Shown here: positions 38,490-49,281 of the stretch, in pieces | How the letters are laid out: each line of letters opens with the position of its first letter | Numbering within the stretch: position 1 is the first letter of the stretch | From: Sediminicoccus sp. KRV36 | GTDB taxonomy: Bacteria > Pseudomonadota > Alphaproteobacteria > Acetobacterales > Acetobacteraceae | Assembly (NCBI RefSeq): GCF_023243115.1 | Contig: NZ_CP085081.1 | Location: 3,162,001-3,226,000, forward strand | Reading direction: 5' to 3' | DNA: 64,000 bases | The notes under the pieces: model-generated | Database searches by the model: none | Told to the model about the DNA's origin: nothing | What the model saw: only the letters and a program-made list of their open reading frames with translations | Made by a program: the position numbers and the translations under genes

Positions 38490-42169
<3,680 letters not shown>

Positions 42170-42173
<4 letters not shown>

Positions 42174-42484
42174 TTCAAATGATCCGGCTTGCCCGCGCCG
42201 GGCGCGGCACTCTCGGCGGCGATCCGGTCCAGCAGGGGGCCGCGCGCATCCAGGGGAATCGGACGGCGGCCGGAGAGCCAATCGGCCAGATCCACATCCG
42301 GCAATTCCATGATGGCATCCAGCTCGTCCAGTTCGGCAGCCGTCAGGCTCGCGATATGCCGGCGCACAAAGCCGCCGAACATCAGGTCGCACTCCTTGGT
42401 GCCGCGATGCAGCGCGCGGAACAGCATCCGGCGCTGGCGATGGGAGAGCTCGGGGGCTTCGTCAGGACTCGTCACACGAGGCAT
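42170..42484 (-). CDS. sdhE: SdhE-type FAD assembly factor
   Basis: 104 aa from ATG 42484. RRMLFRALHRGTKECDLMFGGFVRRHIASLTAAELDELDAIMELPDVDLADWLSG holds the conserved RGTKECD region of the SdhE/YgfY family that inserts covalent FAD into succinate dehydrogenase flavoprotein. It overlaps mfd (GTGA) and lies ten bases from the divergent recG start; recG-sdhE-mfd is a conserved alphaproteobacterial arrangement. Confidence 0.93.
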
Positions 42485-42494
42485 ATAGGGGGTT

Positions 42495-44585
42495 GTGAAC
42501 CCGAGTGTCAGCCTCTCGAACCTGTTTGAACCGCTCGAAACCCTGCCGGGGGTCGGGCCGAAGCGTGCTGCCCTCATCGCCAAGGCCTGCGGCGGGCCGC
42601 GGATTCTGGACCTGCTGTTTCATCTGCCCGACCGGATCGCGGCACGAATGCGCGTGACGCATGCCTCCCTGGCGCCAGCCGATCAGGACGCCGTGCTGCG
42701 CGTAACGCCCATCAGCAGTCGCACGGCGCTCAGCCGCGCCACCCGCCGCCGCTATGTGGAGTTGCGCACCGCCGAGGAAGTGACCCTGCGTTTCATGCAA
42801 TCCAACCTGGGCTGGATCGAGCGGCTGCTGCCGCAGGGGGAAGCGCGCTGGATTTCGGGCCGTATTCGCCCTGAGGGCGATGGCTGGTCCTGCATCAACC
42901 CCGATGTGGCGGCAGATGATGCAGCGCTGCCGAGCCTGGAAGCCATCTGGCCGCTGACCGATGGGTTGAAGCGCGGGCATCTCGCGCCGGCGATGGTCGC
43001 GGCACTGCAACGCCTTCCGGAGATGGAAGAATGGCAGGATGCCCCCTTGTTGGCGCGCGAATCCTGGCCCGGCTTTGCCGGGGCACTGCGCGCCCTGCAT
43101 ACGCCCCAAACCCGCCCGGATCAGAAGCCATGGGAACGCCTGGCCTATGACGAGGCACTGGCCGGGCAATTGGCCTTGGCCCTGCTGCGCCGGCGCAACC
43201 GTGAGGCCCCGGGCCGCCCACTGGCCGGCGATGGCGCGCTGAGGGGCGAGGCCCTGGCCCGATTCGGCCATCCCCCCACACCGGACCAGGCCAAGGCCCT
43301 GGCCGAAATTTCGGCCGATCTCTCCGCCCCGCACCGCATGCTGCGTCTGCTTCAAGGCGATGTTGGCTCGGGCAAGACGCTGGTCGCGGTACTGGCCATG
43401 CTCCAGGCGGTGGAAGCCGGCGCCCAGGCGGCCATCATGGCGCCCACGGAAATCCTGGCGCGGCAGCATTTGCGCACGCTGGAGAAGCTCTGCCCGGTGC
43501 CGGTGGCGCTGCTGGCCGGGTCGGTCAAGGGGCCAGAACGCCGGCGGGTGCTGCGGGGCTTCGCGGATGGCTCCATCAGGATTGCCATCGGCACCCACGC
43601 ACTGTTCCAGCAGGGGGTGGAGTTCCGGGACCTCGGCCTGGCCGTGGTAGATGAGCAGCATCGCTTCGGCGTGGCCCAGCGCCTCGAGCTGGCCGGCAAG
43701 GGCGCCTTGGCGGATATGCTGGTGATGACCGCCACCCCCATCCCGCGCACGCTGCAACTCACGCAATGGGGCGAAATGCGGGTCAGCCGCATTGCGGGCA
43801 AGCCGGCCGGCCGCCAACCCATCGCAACCCGCATCGCCAGCGGCGCGCGCCTGCCCGAAATCATCGCCCGCATGCGCCAGGCACTGGAACGGGGTGAGCG
43901 CGCCTATTGGGTGGTGCGGGCCATCACCGGCGGTGAGCATGATGACAGCATCGCGGCGGAGACCCGCTTCGCCGAACTCTCCGAGCTGTTTCCGGGCCGC
44001 GTCGGCCTCGCCCATGGCGAATTGGAGATGGACCGGCGCGAACAGGCCCTGGCGGATTTCGCGACGGGCCGGACGCAGATCCTGGTGGCGACCACCGTCA
44101 TCGAGGTGGGCGTGGATGTGCCCGAAGCCACCATCATCCTGATCGAGCAGGCCGAGCGCTTTGGCCTCTCGGCCCTGCACCAGCTGCGCGGCCGGGTCGG
44201 GCGCGGGTCCAAGCCCTCCTCCTGCCTCCTGGTGCATTCCGAGCAGCTCTCCGAGCGCGAGCGCGAGCGACTGCTCATCCTGCGCGACACGGAGGATGGC
44301 TTTGTCATCGCCGAGGAGGATCTGCGCCTGCGCGGGGGGGGTGAGGCGCTGGGGACCCGCCAGGCGGGCCAGGCCCAGTTTCGGCTGGGCCTGCGCGGCG
44401 AGGATGAGGCCGCCGCCAGCCGCGCCGCCACGCGCCAGAACGCGCTGATCGAGATGGCAGCCGGGGATGCCGAGGTTCTGCTGACCCGTGATCCGCACCT
44501 GACATCGCCGCGCGGGGTTGCGGCGCGGCAACTTCTGCGGCTGTTTGACAAGGAGGGCGCCGTGGCGCTCCTGGCGGCCGGGTGA
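42495..44585 (+). CDS. recG: ATP-dependent DNA helicase RecG
   Basis: 696 aa from GTG 42495. Wedge domain start FEPLETLPGVGPKRAALIAKACG, then helicase motifs GDVGSGKTLVA (I), VVDEQHRFGV (II, DEQH), TATPIPRTLQL (III) and VATTVIEVGVDVPEATIILIEQAERFGLSALHQLRGRVGR (V-VI). RecG remodels stalled forks and Holliday junctions. Start codon is ten bases from divergent sdhE. Confidence 0.97.
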   Translation: MNPSVSLSNLFEPLETLPGVGPKRAALIAKACGGPRILDLLFHLPDRIAARMRVTHASLAPADQDAVLRVTPISSRTALSRATRRRYVELRTAEEVTLRFMQSNLGWIERLLPQGEARWISGRIRPEGDGWSCINPDVAADDAALPSLEAIWPLTDGLKRGHLAPAMVAALQRLPEMEEWQDAPLLARESWPGFAGALRALHTPQTRPDQKPWERLAYDEALAGQLALALLRRRNREAPGRPLAGDGALRGEALARFGHPPTPDQAKALAEISADLSAPHRMLRLLQGDVGSGKTLVAVLAMLQAVEAGAQAAIMAPTEILARQHLRTLEKLCPVPVALLAGSVKGPERRRVLRGFADGSIRIAIGTHALFQQGVEFRDLGLAVVDEQHRFGVAQRLELAGKGALADMLVMTATPIPRTLQLTQWGEMRVSRIAGKPAGRQPIATRIASGARLPEIIARMRQALERGERAYWVVRAITGGEHDDSIAAETRFAELSELFPGRVGLAHGELEMDRREQALADFATGRTQILVATTVIEVGVDVPEATIILIEQAERFGLSALHQLRGRVGRGSKPSSCLLVHSEQLSERERERLLILRDTEDGFVIAEEDLRLRGGGEALGTRQAGQAQFRLGLRGEDEAAASRAATRQNALIEMAAGDAEVLLTRDPHLTSPRGVAARQLLRLFDKEGAVALLAAG

Positions 44586-44640
44586 CTTGAATTCCTTGCC
44601 CAGTTTTTTAAATCGGCCTGCCGAACCGGGAGACCATCGG

Positions 44641-45366
44641 GTGACTGCCCTGATCGAAATCGAAGGCCTGACCAAAAGCTTCGGCGGCTTCACCGCCGTG
44701 AATGACGTGAGCTTTGCCGTAGCGCGCGGCGAAGTGGTGGGCTTCCTCGGGCCCAATGGGGCTGGCAAATCCACCACCATGCGCATGCTGGCGGGCTTCA
44801 TGCTGCCCAGCGCCGGCACCGCCCGAATCTGCGGCGAGGATGTGGTGAAGCGCCCCGTGGCAGCCAAGCGCCAGCTCGGCTTCCTGCCCGAGGGCGCGCC
44901 CACCTACCCGGAGATGAGTGTCACCGACTTCCTGGATTTCTGCGCCCGCATCCGCGGCTTCTCCGGCGCCGAGCGGGCCACGCGCGTGGACCACGCCATG
45001 GCGCTGACGCAGCTCGAAGGGGTGCGGCTGCAACCCATCGAGACCCTCTCCAAGGGGTTCAAGCGCCGCGTCGGCCTGGCCCAGGCGCTGCTGCACTCTC
45101 CCCCTGTGCTGGTGCTGGATGAGCCGACCGATGGCCTCGACCCCAACCAGAAGCATGAGGTGCGCGAGTTGATCCGTGCCATGGCGCCCGAGAAGGCGAT
45201 CATCATCTCGACCCATATCCTCGAGGAGGTCTCGGCCGTCTGCACACGGGCCATCGTCATCGCCCGAGGCCGGGTCCTGGCCGACGCGACGCCGGCCGCA
45301 CTGGTCGCTGACGGACGCAGCATGGAGGAGGTGTTCCGCAGCCTCACCCTGGGAGAAGCCCCATGA
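44641..45366 (+). CDS. Gld-type ABC transporter ATP-binding protein (GldA-like)
   Basis: 241 aa from GTG 44641. Walker A GPNGAGKSTTMRML, signature LSKGFKRRVGLAQAL and Walker B VLVLDEPTDGLDPNQ are complete. The family energises Gld/auxiliary ABC exporters; in non-gliding proteobacteria its partner genes, as here, are a permease, a GldG-like protein and DUF4340. Its stop overlaps the ATG at 45363. Confidence 0.93.
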   Translation: MTALIEIEGLTKSFGGFTAVNDVSFAVARGEVVGFLGPNGAGKSTTMRMLAGFMLPSAGTARICGEDVVKRPVAAKRQLGFLPEGAPTYPEMSVTDFLDFCARIRGFSGAERATRVDHAMALTQLEGVRLQPIETLSKGFKRRVGLAQALLHSPPVLVLDEPTDGLDPNQKHEVRELIRAMAPEKAIIISTHILEEVSAVCTRAIVIARGRVLADATPAALVADGRSMEEVFRSLTLGEAP

Positions 45367-45542
45367 ACGCCGCCGATTCACGCCTCCGGGCCAAGGCCCT
45401 CCAGCGATCGGAGGCCAACTGCTCTCCTGCCACCGATTCACGCCTCCGGGCCAAGGCCCTCCAGCGATCGGAGGCCAACTGCTCTCCTGCCACCGATTCA
45501 CGCCTCCGGGCCAAGGCCCTCCAGCGATCGGAGGCCGCATGA
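45363..45542 (+). CDS. Small repeat-derived ORF linking ATPase and permease genes, 59 aa
   Basis: ATG at 45363 overlaps the ATPase stop (ATGA); the frame consists of three copies of DSRLRAKALQRSEA with a NCSPAT spacer and ends at TGA 45540-45542, which overlaps the permease ATG (ATGA). The opening ATGAACGCCGCC is repeated exactly at the permease start, 45539. The 60-base period keeps the frame open. It may be translated as a relay between the two genes rather than for a useful product. Confidence 0.4.
   Translation: MNAADSRLRAKALQRSEANCSPATDSRLRAKALQRSEANCSPATDSRLRAKALQRSEAA
45373..45537 (+). repeat. 60-bp tandem repeats between ATPase and permease genes
   Basis: Three identical 43-base cores, starting CGATTCACGCCTCCGG and ending GCGATCGGAGGCC, are separated by identical 17-base spacers. 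Each core can fold (GCCTCC with GGAGGC, GGGCC with GGCCC) and contains one GATTC and one GATC. The block is flanked on both sides by CATGAACGCCGCC. Confidence 0.95.
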
Positions 45543-46270
45543 ACGCCGCCCTGACGGTCGCCAGGCGCGAGTTCGCGGCCTATTTCGCAACGCCCGTCGC
45601 CACCGTGTTCATCGTGATCTTCCTGGTGCTCTCGGGGGCGCTGACCTTCACGCTCGGTGGGTTCTTCGGGCGTGGCCAGGCTGATCTGCTGCCATTTTTC
45701 GGCTTCATCCCCTGGCTGTTCCTGTTCCTCGTCCCGGCCCTCACCATGCGTCTCTGGGCCGAGGAACGGCGCCTGGGCACGATTGAACTGCTGCTGACGC
45801 TGCCCATCACGGCGGGCCAGGCGGTGATCGGGAAATTCCTTGCCGCCTGGGCGTTCTGCGCGGTGGCGCTGGCCTTGACCTTCCCCCTCGTCATCACCGT
45901 GAACGTCCTGGGCGAGCCGGATAATGGCGTGATCCTGACCGGCTATCTCGGCTGCCTGCTGGTCGCGGGCGCCTATCTGGCCATCGGTGCCGCGATTTCG
46001 GCCCTCACGCGGAACCAGGTCATCGCCTTCGTGCTTGCCGTCGCGGGCTGTTTCGTCTTTGCCGCCGCGGGCTCTCCGGTGGTGACGGAGTTCCTGTCAT
46101 CCAGGCTGCCCATCCTTGCCGAGATCGCCCGCGGGGTCAGTGTGGGTGAACGCATCAACGGCTTCACCCGAGGCGTCATCTCCGCCAAGGATTTCATCTT
46201 CTTCGCGAGCTTCATCGGCTTCTGGCTTTTCGTGAATGCCGTCATCCTTGAACACAAGAAGGCGGATTGA
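45539..46270 (+). CDS. ABC transporter permease (GldF-like)
   Basis: 243 aa from ATG 45539. MNAALTVARREFAAYFATPVATVFIVIFLVLSGALTF begins the first of six membrane helices; RLWAEERRLGTIELLLTLPITAGQAVIGKFLAA is the ABC-2 EAA-like cytoplasmic segment. It shares its first codons with the relay ORF start upstream. Makes the membrane channel with the GldA-like ATPase. Confidence 0.92.
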   Translation: MNAALTVARREFAAYFATPVATVFIVIFLVLSGALTFTLGGFFGRGQADLLPFFGFIPWLFLFLVPALTMRLWAEERRLGTIELLLTLPITAGQAVIGKFLAAWAFCAVALALTFPLVITVNVLGEPDNGVILTGYLGCLLVAGAYLAIGAAISALTRNQVIAFVLAVAGCFVFAAAGSPVVTEFLSSRLPILAEIARGVSVGERINGFTRGVISAKDFIFFASFIGFWLFVNAVILEHKKAD

Positions 46271-46274
46271 GGCC

Positions 46275-48194
46275 ATGCGGAATTCCCGCCTCACCTTTTC
46301 CCTGCTCGGCGTGGTGGCCGCATTCATGCTGGCTGTCGGCGTGAATATGCTGGCGGACCGCCTGCTCGGCGCCGCACGCGCGGATCTGACGGAAAACCAG
46401 CTCTACACCCTCTCCCCCGGCACGCGGCAGGTGCTGGGCGGGTTGCAGGATCCGATCACGCTGCGCTTTTTCTATTCCCGCAAACTCGGTGCCGAGGCGC
46501 CGCAATTCGGCGCCTATGCCGAGCGCGTGCGGGAGATGCTGCGGGAATATGTCGCCACATCGCGTGGCAAGCTGCGCCTGGAAATCTTCGACCCCGAGCC
46601 GTTCTCCGAAGTCGAGGACCGTGCCGTGGCGCTGGGCATGCAGGGCGTGCCGCTCGATCAGGCCGGCGAGCAGGTCTATTTCGGCCTGGCCGCCAGCAAC
46701 CAGGTGGATGAAGAACGCAATATCCCCTTCTTCCAGCCCGAGCGTGAACGCTTCCTGGAAGCCGATCTGACGCGCCTCATCTTCGAACTGTCCAGCCCCG
46801 CCAAGCCCGTCCTCGGCGTCATGTCGCCCCTGCCGCTGAATGGCGATCCGCGCGCCATGATGATGCGCCAGCCGGCCCTGGCGCAGCCCCAGGTGGTAAT
46901 GCGTCAGCTGCGCGAGAATTTCACCGTGCAGGACATCGCCTTTGACGTGCAGGTCATCCCGCCCGAGGTGCGGATCCTGCTGCTCGCCCACCCGCAGGAC
47001 CTGCCGGAGGCGGCGCAATATGCCGTCGACCAGTTCGTCATGCGTGGCGGCAAGCTGTTCCTGATGATCGACCCGCATAGCGAGATGCAGGCGGCGCGCC
47101 CGGGCCCCGGCGGCAGGCCGCCCACCAACACCGCCTCCATCCTGCCGCGCCTGCTGGAAGCCTGGGGCATCGAGGCGCCGGCCGATCGTGTGGTGCTGGA
47201 TCTGCGCGGCGCCTGGCGCGTGCGCGCGGCGCCCACGGAACGTGTGCAGGCGGTGGACTACATCGCCTGGTTCAACCTTCAGGGCGACAGTGTGAACCGC
47301 CAGGAAGTGGCAACGGCGCTGATCGAGCAGGTCACCGTCGCCTCCTCGGGTTATCTGCGGCCACGGCCCAATGCAGGGATCGAGTTCATCCCGCTGCTGA
47401 CCAGCTCCGCACAATCCATGCTGGTGGATGCGGCGCGGGTGCGCAGCGAGCCCTCGCCCACGCGCATCCTGGCGGATTTCCGCGCCGATGGAGAACGCCG
47501 CGTGATTGCCGCCCGTGTGCGCGGCAATCTGCGGAGCGCCTTCCAGGAGGGCGCGCCCGCCCCTGCCGAAGGCGTGGAACGCCCGGCCGATTTCCCGGCG
47601 CATCTGGCCCGCAGCGAGGGCGCCGCCAATCTCGTGATCGTGCATGACACGGACCTCCTGGAGGACCGCTTCTGGGTCCGTGTGCAGGAATTCTTTGGCC
47701 AGCCGGTCGCCAATCCCTTCTCGGGCAATGGCAGCTTTGTGGTGAATGTGGCGGATACGCTGGCCGGATCGGATGCGATGATCAGCCTGCGTTCGCGCGG
47801 CGAATCCCAACGCCCCTTCGAGTTGGTGGAAGATATCCGCCGGCAGGCCGACGCCCAGTTCCGCCAGAGCGAACAACAACTGACCGAACGCCTGCAAGCC
47901 ACCGAGCGCCGCCTGCGTGAGTTGCGCCAGGGAACTGGCGGTGAGGGCGCGCGCAACACCAACCAGACCGTCATCACCGCCGAGCAGCGCGCGGAAATTG
48001 ACCGTGCGCGCGAGGAAATCGCCAATACACGGCGGCAATTGCGCGCGGTCCAGCTCGAGCTGCGGCGCGACATCGAGACGCTGGAAACCTGGCTGCGCGT
48101 CTTCAACATCGCGCTGGTGCCGGTGCTATTGACCCTCTTTGCCGTGGTGCTCGGCGTGCTGCGCAGCCGGCGTCGCGCGAGGGCGCGCGCGTGA
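46275..48194 (+). CDS. GldG-like ABC-associated protein, 639 aa
   Basis: ATG at 46275, four bases after the permease. One N-terminal membrane helix (about 8-30), DLTENQLYTLSPGTRQVLGGLQDPITLRFFYS (GldG family start), a periplasmic DUF4350-like region (IRILLLAHPQDLPEAAQYAVDQFVMRGGKLFLMIDPHSE) and a C-terminal coiled coil (about 530-610) with a last membrane helix before an Arg/Ala-rich end. The ABC-2 complex GldFG/DUF4340 is generally assigned to surface or envelope functions; the substrate is unknown. Confidence 0.9.
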   Translation: MRNSRLTFSLLGVVAAFMLAVGVNMLADRLLGAARADLTENQLYTLSPGTRQVLGGLQDPITLRFFYSRKLGAEAPQFGAYAERVREMLREYVATSRGKLRLEIFDPEPFSEVEDRAVALGMQGVPLDQAGEQVYFGLAASNQVDEERNIPFFQPERERFLEADLTRLIFELSSPAKPVLGVMSPLPLNGDPRAMMMRQPALAQPQVVMRQLRENFTVQDIAFDVQVIPPEVRILLLAHPQDLPEAAQYAVDQFVMRGGKLFLMIDPHSEMQAARPGPGGRPPTNTASILPRLLEAWGIEAPADRVVLDLRGAWRVRAAPTERVQAVDYIAWFNLQGDSVNRQEVATALIEQVTVASSGYLRPRPNAGIEFIPLLTSSAQSMLVDAARVRSEPSPTRILADFRADGERRVIAARVRGNLRSAFQEGAPAPAEGVERPADFPAHLARSEGAANLVIVHDTDLLEDRFWVRVQEFFGQPVANPFSGNGSFVVNVADTLAGSDAMISLRSRGESQRPFELVEDIRRQADAQFRQSEQQLTERLQATERRLRELRQGTGGEGARNTNQTVITAEQRAEIDRAREEIANTRRQLRAVQLELRRDIETLETWLRVFNIALVPVLLTLFAVVLGVLRSRRRARARA

Positions 48195-48248
48195 TGAAGC
48201 AACGCGAGGGCGCGCGCGTGATGAAGCAACGCGAGGGCGCGCGCGTGA
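48177..48248 (+). repeat. 27-bp tandem repeats across the GldG-like/DUF4340 junction
   Basis: GCGAGGGCGCGCGCGTGATGAAGCAAC occurs at 48177 and 48204, and its first 18 bases again at 48231. Each unit repeats the end of the GldG-like gene with its stop (GTGATG) followed by ATGAAGCAAC. Period 27, a multiple of three. Confidence 0.95.
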
Positions 48249-48274
48249 AGGGCATCATGAGGGCACACGCATGA
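48194..48274 (+). CDS. Small repeat-derived ORF linking GldG-like and DUF4340 genes, 26 aa
   Basis: ATG at 48194 overlaps the GldG-like stop (TGATG). The frame MKQREGARV, MKQREGARV, then KGIMRAHA ends in TGA at 48272-48274, overlapping the DUF4340 ATG (ATGA). It mirrors the 45363 ORF. Translation is inferred only from the overlaps; a coupling leader is as likely as a functional peptide. Confidence 0.35.
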   Translation: MKQREGARVMKQREGARVKGIMRAHA

Positions 48275-49281
48275 TCGGCAAGCGAAGCTTGGCACTGCTG
48301 GCCGGCGCGGCGGCGGCCAGCCTGGGCGGAGCATTCCTGCTGCGGCCGGAAGGGGAAAGCCAGGGCCAGATTGCCACGGGCACCCTCGCCTTCCCTGGCC
48401 TTGCCGCGCGGCTCACCGGGGCCGCTCGAATCGAGATCAAACGCGGCGCGCAATCCACCACACTGATCCGTGACGGGGAGAGTTGGGGCATCGCGGAAAG
48501 CCAAGGCTACCCTGCCCGGGCTGAGCGCATCCGCGAGATGCTCACCGGCCTCACGGAGTTGCGGCTGATGGAAGAACGCAGCGGCGAACCCGGGCAATGG
48601 TCGCGCCTTGGTGTCGAGGATCCTCTGGCGGCGGGCAGCACGGCCGCTCTCCTGCGGGTGCTCAATGCGACAGGCGGGGTGCTGGCCGAGCTTATCCTCG
48701 GCCGCCGGCGTGTTCGCACCCAGGGCAATCTGCCGGAGAGCGTCTATGTCCGGCGGCCCGGCGAAAGCCGCGCCTGGTTGGCCGAAGGGCGCATTGGCGC
48801 CGATGCCGACCCCTCGCTCTGGATCAACCGCGACATCGCGAATTTGGCCCCGGCCCGCCTGCGCCGCGTCGAGATCGCCCGCAACGGTGCGCCGCCGCTC
48901 GTTCTGGCCCGAGCGGGAGAGGTTGATGCGCCACTCGACATCATCACGCCCGAGGATGCGCCCGTCGCCGACCGGGTCGCGCTGGATGAAGTGGGCCGCG
49001 CTTTTGACATGCTGACCTTCGTGGAGGTGCGTCCAGCCACGGACTCGGCCAGCGAGGCCGTGGGGGAGGCCCTGGGCGAAACGCGCTTCCACTACACGGA
49101 TGACGTGACCATCACCGCCCGGCCCAGCCGCGAGGGCGAATTGTTCTGGGTGCGCCTCAGCGCCGCGGGCGGCGAGGAGGCGCAGCAGCTCCAGGCTCGC
49201 TTCCAGGGCTGGGCCTTTCAGCTCGGCCTCTGGAAGGAAAAGGCAATGATCCCGCGCGTCGAAGACCTTGCGGTCACGTGA
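48271..49281 (+). CDS. DUF4340 protein of the Gld-type ABC system
   Basis: 336 aa from ATG 48271. N-terminal membrane anchor (about 5-25), then the DUF4340 pattern: FPGLAARLTGAARIEIKRGAQSTTLIRDGESWGI, then LILGRRRVRTQGNLPESVYVRRPGESRAWL. It extends into the periplasm. Its stop overlaps the Nudix gene start (TGATG), so the four Gld-type genes and the Nudix gene are probably cotranscribed. Confidence 0.9.
   Translation: MIGKRSLALLAGAAAASLGGAFLLRPEGESQGQIATGTLAFPGLAARLTGAARIEIKRGAQSTTLIRDGESWGIAESQGYPARAERIREMLTGLTELRLMEERSGEPGQWSRLGVEDPLAAGSTAALLRVLNATGGVLAELILGRRRVRTQGNLPESVYVRRPGESRAWLAEGRIGADADPSLWINRDIANLAPARLRRVEIARNGAPPLVLARAGEVDAPLDIITPEDAPVADRVALDEVGRAFDMLTFVEVRPATDSASEAVGEALGETRFHYTDDVTITARPSREGELFWVRLSAAGGEEAQQLQARFQGWAFQLGLWKEKAMIPRVEDLAVT

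Follow-up and report, generated by a model that had tools for sequence, protein, structure and literature searches.

How can a tandem repeat lie between two genes whose stop and start codons overlap directly in most relatives, and leave the second gene within reach of ribosomes that have just finished the first? The question is raised by an ABC ATPase gene and its permease gene in Sediminicoccus sp. KRV36 (NCBI RefSeq assembly GCF_023243115.1, a 4.9-Mb genome in a single contig, NZ_CP085081.1), which lie in a stretch of 64,000 nucleotides (positions 3,162,001 to 3,226,000; here, the window); other genomes, one per species, served for comparison. Here, we report that the array belongs to a dispersed hairpin repeat family, which is probably tolerated at coupled junctions in those phases that would let ribosomes terminate and reinitiate their way through it.

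The junction is composed of the following features (window coordinates).

44641..45366, forward strand: ABC ATPase gene (GldA-like), stop TGA at 45364-45366, GTG start chosen by eye
45351..45355, forward strand: GGGAG, Shine-Dalgarno-like, preceding the relay ORF start (putative role)
45363..45542, forward strand: relay micro-ORF, 59 codons, with an ATGA overlap at each end
45373..45411, forward strand: hairpin element core copy 1, CCGATTCACG...CGATCGG
45433..45471, forward strand: hairpin element core copy 2, pattern match
45493..45531, forward strand: hairpin element core copy 3, pattern match
45530..45534, forward strand: GGAGG at the 3' end of copy 3, a putative new Shine-Dalgarno site separated from the permease ATG by four bases
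45539..46270, forward strand: ABC-2 permease gene (GldF-like), ATG at 45539-45541

The ATPase gene matched Pfam ABC_tran, with GldA as its best NCBIfam match (below the cut-off), and the permease gene matched Pfam ABC2 membrane families, with NCBIfam GldF likewise below its cut-off. An earlier, sequence-only reading had placed a 59-codon open frame with ATGA at both ends between them, and its coordinates were confirmed: the ATPase stop, TGA 45364-45366, shares bases with ATG 45363, and at the other end the frame's own stop, TGA 45540-45542, shares bases with the permease ATG (45539-45541); the translation is MNAADSRLRAKALQRSEANCSPATDSRLRAKALQRSEANCSPATDSRLRAKALQRSEAA. The 12 bases ATGAACGCCGCC occur at 45363-45374 and again at 45539-45550, i.e., at both ends, and the insert measures 176 nt from ATG to ATG (2 modulo 3), so that the proposal, a stop/start overlap that has taken up an insert without losing the frame needed for coupling on either side, holds as architecture. 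The description of the array as three identical 60-base units was too strict: Tandem Repeats Finder (TRF) gave a period of 60 (2.8 copies, 99% match, score 329), but perfect identity among the three copies is confined to a 44-base block (at 45373, 45433, and 45493), and the whole 60-base blocks agree pairwise at 53, 56, and 49 of 60 positions. In several relatives, a GGGAG-like sequence lies upstream of the permease ATG; here, it lies upstream of the relay ORF.

The same junction was sought in 60 genomes, 42 of which had a match, and the best 30 of the 42 loci were examined, the window's included, leaving 29 relatives. Relatives had been predicted to show a direct overlap without the array, with copy number varying, and this was borne out: 25/29 have a direct or near-direct junction (permease match starting −1 to +11 nt from the ATPase stop), and two carry one copy each. 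In one of the two (G005), the copy forms a C-terminal extension of the ATPase by read-through, whose TGA again overlaps the permease ATG; in the other (G014), it lies between two ATGA sites, bridged by MMAADSRLRADALQQSEAI. The remaining two have a 161-nt insert unrelated to the repeat (G010) and an apparently longer permease N-terminus (L035). Among 80 named loci, 76 were measurable, with a gap of −10 to +8 at 68 (the G005 record with its read-through copy among them) and a longer one at 8. Four of the eight are permeases that start earlier; the other four (L076, which is the G010 record, L128, L140, and L152) are inserts between the genes, and each of them keeps a relay. L140, from a MAG at 79% identity, holds two copies of a cousin element; the inserts of L128 and L152 presumably resemble the common alphaproteobacterial CGTC-1 type repeat. 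All six inserted junctions that were traced (G000, which is the genome studied here, G014, G010, L140, L152, and L128) contain a chain of coupled frames, with a single ORF from ATGA or GTGA to ATGA bridging five of them and three micro-ORFs bridging L128. Comparison of sequences reveals empty sites and differences in copy number (0, 1, 2, or 3, the 2 being the cousin element). No unrelated conserved 59-aa frame was seen at the junction in the 29 relatives or the 76 measurable named loci. In the tree, G005, G014, and G017, whose site is empty, were placed together at 99/98, and G000 branched elsewhere in a poorly resolved fork; the insertions in G000 and G014 could be one shared event.

A DNA search with the array against its own genome returned 16 match rows, which fall at 14 places when the window's array is counted in, and most of these places are gene junctions. 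The copies share common ends, CCGATTCA(CG) and CGATCGG, and the stem between them varies from copy to copy. Because the pattern CCGATTCA-N8-38-CGATCGG has 39 matches in the genome and its reversed control has none, the junction array is not a chance occurrence. The pattern was found in 21/21 genomes of the genus (Roseococcus and kin), with 1 to 93 matches each, none for the control in any, and five or more matches in 18/21; the one or two matches in each of G011, G013, and G016 may be chance. Across the family, 52/150 genomes had the pattern, the genus itself counted in; in each of ten further genera, at least one genome reaches four matches, and others have one to three, partly without a hairpin. 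Many of the family genomes with one or two matches may have them by chance. Class-wide, 31/190 genomes matched, with one to three mostly chance-like matches per genome outside the family and a few that look like hairpins (G194, G200, G287, and G313).

Folding of single cores closed all five CCGAT/ATCGG pairs, with TCA bulged out unpaired, in 82/99 distinct cores, and 58/99 folded better than 95% of versions with a shuffled inner segment. The junction's own unit folds no better than its shuffles (z of −0.97 for 43 nt and −0.68 for 62 nt). Covariation in a MAFFT alignment of the cores (RNAalifold) was weak, probably because the stems differ in length. On the opposite strand, the tag before the stem is CGTC at 34/80 sites and CCTC at 15/80. 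Multicopy clusters have a single orientation in 33/33 cases with none mixed, a count from which diverged partners would escape through the pattern. Presumably the element moves. The sole transposase profile searched, Y1_Tnp (PF01797), had no match in the own genome and was absent from 20/21 genomes of the genus, and RAYT-driven mobilisation of the REP type was rejected for the own genome on that finding. The only genus genome of the 21 with Y1-type transposase matches, G016, has just two pattern matches. One copy (L172, G000:C1:1138751-1138799) lies inside an 801-codon open frame that we take, from its motifs, to encode an HrpB-type helicase. GATTC within the pattern itself is, we assume, a GANTC site of the CcrM type, and a link of the element copies to cell-cycle methylation through it is possible. 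No description of the hairpin family was found in the open literature searched by titles and abstract openings. Rfam over 41800-48400 gave a single match, Ysr141 (43338-43448, reverse strand, inside recG), which is far below the gathering score and probably due to chance.

For a genus-wide test of relay, 80 distinct sites were placed, comprising own-genome pattern sites together with other genomes' sites and most arrays among the matches listed. G001, G003, G006, G010, G014, G017, G018, and G019 are underrepresented in this set; three arrays (G005 C395, G002 C158, and G020 C433) and sites too near a contig end were left out, and copies in the own genome that deviate from the exact pattern (e.g., L003, L008, L016, and L170-L173) were read by eye outside it. 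Flanking frames were assigned from codon usage, with the window as the training set, and the assignments at some sites are of low confidence. Relay was scored where a start codon lying −4 to +8 nt from the upstream stop gives access to the downstream frame, directly or via micro-ORFs.

Of these sites, 55 are codirectional, 21 convergent, and 4 divergent, and at the codirectional ones the element is sense to the genes in 27 and antisense in 28. Among the codirectional sites, 45/55 have a relay, against 33.0 if phase were random (P = 4e-7); one of the 45 (L175) simply lies inside one open frame. A strict −4 to +3 rule gave 38 versus 26.7 expected (P = 7e-6). By origin, relay was seen at 19/20 sites in the own genome and 26/35 in other genomes, nine of the ten codirectional sites without it being in other species. 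The excess was retained when one site was kept from each of eight groups alike on both flanks (37/46 versus 26.5; P = 2e-6), and again when G011, G013, and G016 were also removed (35/43 versus 25.3 expected; P = 6e-6). Paths that use a micro-ORF measure 2 modulo 3 from first restart to downstream start in 24/32 cases. Relays form readily in GC-rich DNA: with the core shuffled at fixed length, relay persisted at 36.4/55, and with one or two bases added it fell to 32.7/55 and 21.3/55, respectively. Because shuffles keep 36.4/55 and one added base 32.7/55, only phase, not openness, is strongly nonrandom; openness of the core was thus rejected as a signal.

Hairpins were weaker at relay sites (median z of −1.66, n = 45) than elsewhere (−2.48, n = 35; P = 0.001), as expected if ribosomes must pass, although other causes are possible. 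Delivery of a Shine-Dalgarno site as the general role of the family was unsupported, such a site being carried by the element at 10/28 sites versus 6.7 expected. At one junction with alike flanks, the element is antisense in L005 and L218 and sense in L180, in one or two copies, and the opposite orientations suggest repeated insertion. At four codirectional sites without relay (L193, L206, L232, and L240), the upstream stop is a TAG 6 nt before the core, supplied by the element's outer ACGCTA on the other strand; ACGCTA is also present at other sites.

Tandem duplication offers a second view of phase. By codon arithmetic, a duplication across ATGA with a period of 0 modulo 3 would keep coupling through in-frame fusion, one of 2 modulo 3 would keep it since each copy's ATG would end at the next copy's TGA, and one of 1 modulo 3 would break it. 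Periods of codirectional arrays fell into classes 0/1/2 as 18/1/4 (n = 23; 0 or 2 in 22/23) and those of convergent arrays as 2/7/1 (n = 10; class 1 in 7/10), a difference (Fisher P = 2e-4 for class 1 and 0.005 for class 0) that rests on small numbers and on the same data from which the rule was formed. With one array per look-alike group, the counts were 12/1/3 (n = 16) and 2/6/1 (n = 9), respectively (P = 0.003 and 0.017). The sole codirectional array of 1 modulo 3, L206, is without relay. Sixteen further arrays from the family listing, counted irrespective of gene context, were distributed as 13/2/1.

The window holds two more arrays at gene junctions.

48194..48274, forward strand: second relay micro-ORF in the same operon, 26 aa, mostly an unrelated 27-bp tandem repeat
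About 41948-42173, reverse strand: 48-bp array between the Sdh5-like gene and Mfd (L059), from the same hairpin superfamily

The unrelated 27-bp repeat spans about 48176-48274 at the GldG-like/DUF4340 junction, and the ORF in it has a TGATG overlap with the GldG-like stop and a CATGA overlap with the DUF4340 start. That junction is a direct overlap in 17/18 relatives, the exception, G010, having an independent array of its own that repeats the junction's ATGA. From these two arrays, tolerance may be a property of the junction as much as of the element. The 48-bp array, about four and a half repeats, is also picked up by the pattern (41948-42166) and can be read as an in-frame N-terminal extension of Mfd, whose start would be a GTGA shared with the Sdh5-like gene; the Mfd match is over its profile cut-off.

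We propose that a REP-like element, a small hairpin repeat found in Roseococcus and its relatives among the Acetobacteraceae, was inserted at the GldA-like/GldF-like ATGA overlap and then grew to three tandem copies. Ribosomes finishing the ATPase would reinitiate at ATG 45363, translate the 59-codon filler peptide, stop at TGA 45540, and reinitiate on the permease, with the native GGGAG now serving the filler ORF and the GGAGG at the end of the element serving the permease. The insert would have survived because its length (176 nt, 2 modulo 3) and its open frame make it a relay. More generally, an insert or duplication at a coupled junction would persist when its length is 0 (fusion) or 2 (micro-ORF chain) modulo 3 and would tend to be lost when it is 1, selection for coupling being the presumed cause. 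In two studies, overlapping gene pairs were tightly coupled in 13/14 cases (PMC6728339), and coupling was almost lost in six pairs once a gap of about 20 nt separated the genes (PMC10666635); these data and the anatomy of the junction suggest to us that the ATPase/permease pair depends on coupling and that inserts survive if they keep the phase.

The repeat might instead be a neutral passenger, its open frame a by-product of GC-rich sequence with a period divisible by three, and the permease might be initiated on its own from the GGAGG of the element. The position of that site four bases upstream of the permease ATG fits this account, as does the retention of relay in fixed-length shuffles of the core, but the phase bias exceeds chance, convergent arrays are biased to other periods, and 20-nt gaps nearly abolish coupling in the pairs tested elsewhere (PMC10666635); we consider it unlikely. 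Nor do we expect the array to act chiefly as an RNA-level regulator whose hairpins tune or attenuate permease synthesis against that of the ATPase, e.g., with GGAGGC masked by GCCTCC until a ribosome opens it. The 43-nt unit does have two near-equal folds, and in one of them GCCTCC is base-paired to GGAGGC. The failure of the own unit to outfold its shuffles, the weaker hairpins at relay sites, and the lack of the element at the junction in most relatives all count against such control, and its probability is low.

That the 59-aa peptide is a functional small protein is highly improbable: in its favour are the open frame and a unit peptide of similar sequence, ADSRLRAxALQRSEA with its variants (translated by eye), that is readable at several sites, but the element is found about equally in both orientations to genes, it is read differently at other sites, and most relatives have no repeat at this junction. 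An assembly or annotation artefact would be more improbable again, given a single-contig genome and members of the repeat family at the same junction in other assemblies (one or two copies), even with tandem copies prone to misassembly and one genome per species. Tolerance of the repeat in relay-compatible phases is thus the reading that we prefer. A broader version of it is conceivable, though we would sooner doubt than assert it: a REP-type hairpin repeat of alphaproteobacteria might be a mobile translational-coupling cassette that enters stop/start overlaps either way round, bears GTGA on its antisense strand (CGTGAATCGG), hands ribosomes on by fusion or micro-ORF chains, and has its hairpins relaxed at relay sites, and it might, with unrelated tandem duplications, reveal a modulo-3 law that filters coupled junctions.

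Mycobacterial interspersed repetitive units (MIRUs), reportedly described by Supply et al. in 1997, resemble the present arrays in their working; common descent is not claimed. MIRUs insert at DTGA sites and, to our knowledge, have no clear dyad symmetry. The sequence-only reading knew of no described array of this form, coupled at both ends, but mycobacterial MIRUs already have this architecture: as outlined in a 2025 review (PMC12548453), they appear mobile, insert at start codons, and have an ORF of their own coupled to the gene there at −4 nt, with little likely effect on the coupled gene. In accounts of individual loci, H37Rv has three identical 77-bp MIRUs between senX3 and regX3 (PMC4213456), and close relatives have a few bases where others have a MIRU-VNTR array (PMC2734929); PMC3914561 is a further source. 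The likeness extends to a dispersed, often tandem short repeat (here with 39 pattern matches against none in the control), to an intergenic ORF of its own that is stop/start-coupled to the next gene (here as architecture only, at 45/55 sites), and to presence and copy number that vary between relatives at one site (here 0, 1, 2, and 3). The differences are the host phylum, a hairpin here with a variable stem and conserved ends, and the use here of both orientations and of N-terminal fusions besides chains.

In its form, the element is closest to the bulged, CGTC/CCTC-tagged REPs, and by the features tested it is not a member. As far as the available text of Di Nocera et al. (2013, PMC3733652) goes, the CGTC-tagged super-family comprises small alphaproteobacterial palindromes with an unpaired CGTC or CCTC end tag and no known transposase, found between unidirectional and convergent ORFs and in some cases within genes; the repeats were reported missing in Acetobacteraceae, uni-REPs of two families lie at varying distances from the downstream ORF, and no start/stop relay was found described in that part of the work. 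Here, CGTC or CCTC precedes the stem on the other strand at part of the sites, in the counts given above, against the unpaired CGTC (or TGTC, CCTC) tag of the super-family, whose short unpaired tail is mostly CCA. Their stem of 8-9 bp starting with AT, with a loop of 4-5, does not describe the present element, whose stem starts with CGAT or CCGAT, has a 3-nt TCA/TGA bulge, and varies along with the loop. CGTC-tagged REPs are mostly head-to-head dimers, whereas the arrays here are head to tail, with every cluster in one orientation.

Other known systems share single traits. GTAG REPs mobilised by RAYTs need a Y1 transposase, and the own genome is without Y1_Tnp; the Rickettsia palindromic element is in-frame and intragenic, a situation for which L172 is the one candidate here, most own-genome sites examined being junctions. 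ATGA/TGATG termination-reinitiation pairs (PMC6728339, PMC10666635) have the same coupling signal as each end of the relay, although their genes overlap directly and here a repeat is spliced into the overlap. The small ORF of a Salmonella Mg2+ transporter, as presented in PMC8092293, is likewise intergenic and affects downstream translation, but it is a single regulatory ORF and not a dispersed repeat.

The architecture, then, is known from MIRUs; what is new is the hairpin family, its host clade, its use of both orientations, and the phase rule. If the proposal is true, a mycobacterial phenomenon would be extended to hairpin repeats in a family reported to be without CGTC-tagged REPs, under a testable rule by which additions of 0 or 2 modulo 3 are tolerated and those of 1 mostly are not, and for which convergent sites are a built-in control. 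The same gene pair with 0, 1, or 3 copies would provide natural constructs with which to gauge chained terminations and reinitiations, and repeats could occupy tightly coupled operon junctions without uncoupling them.
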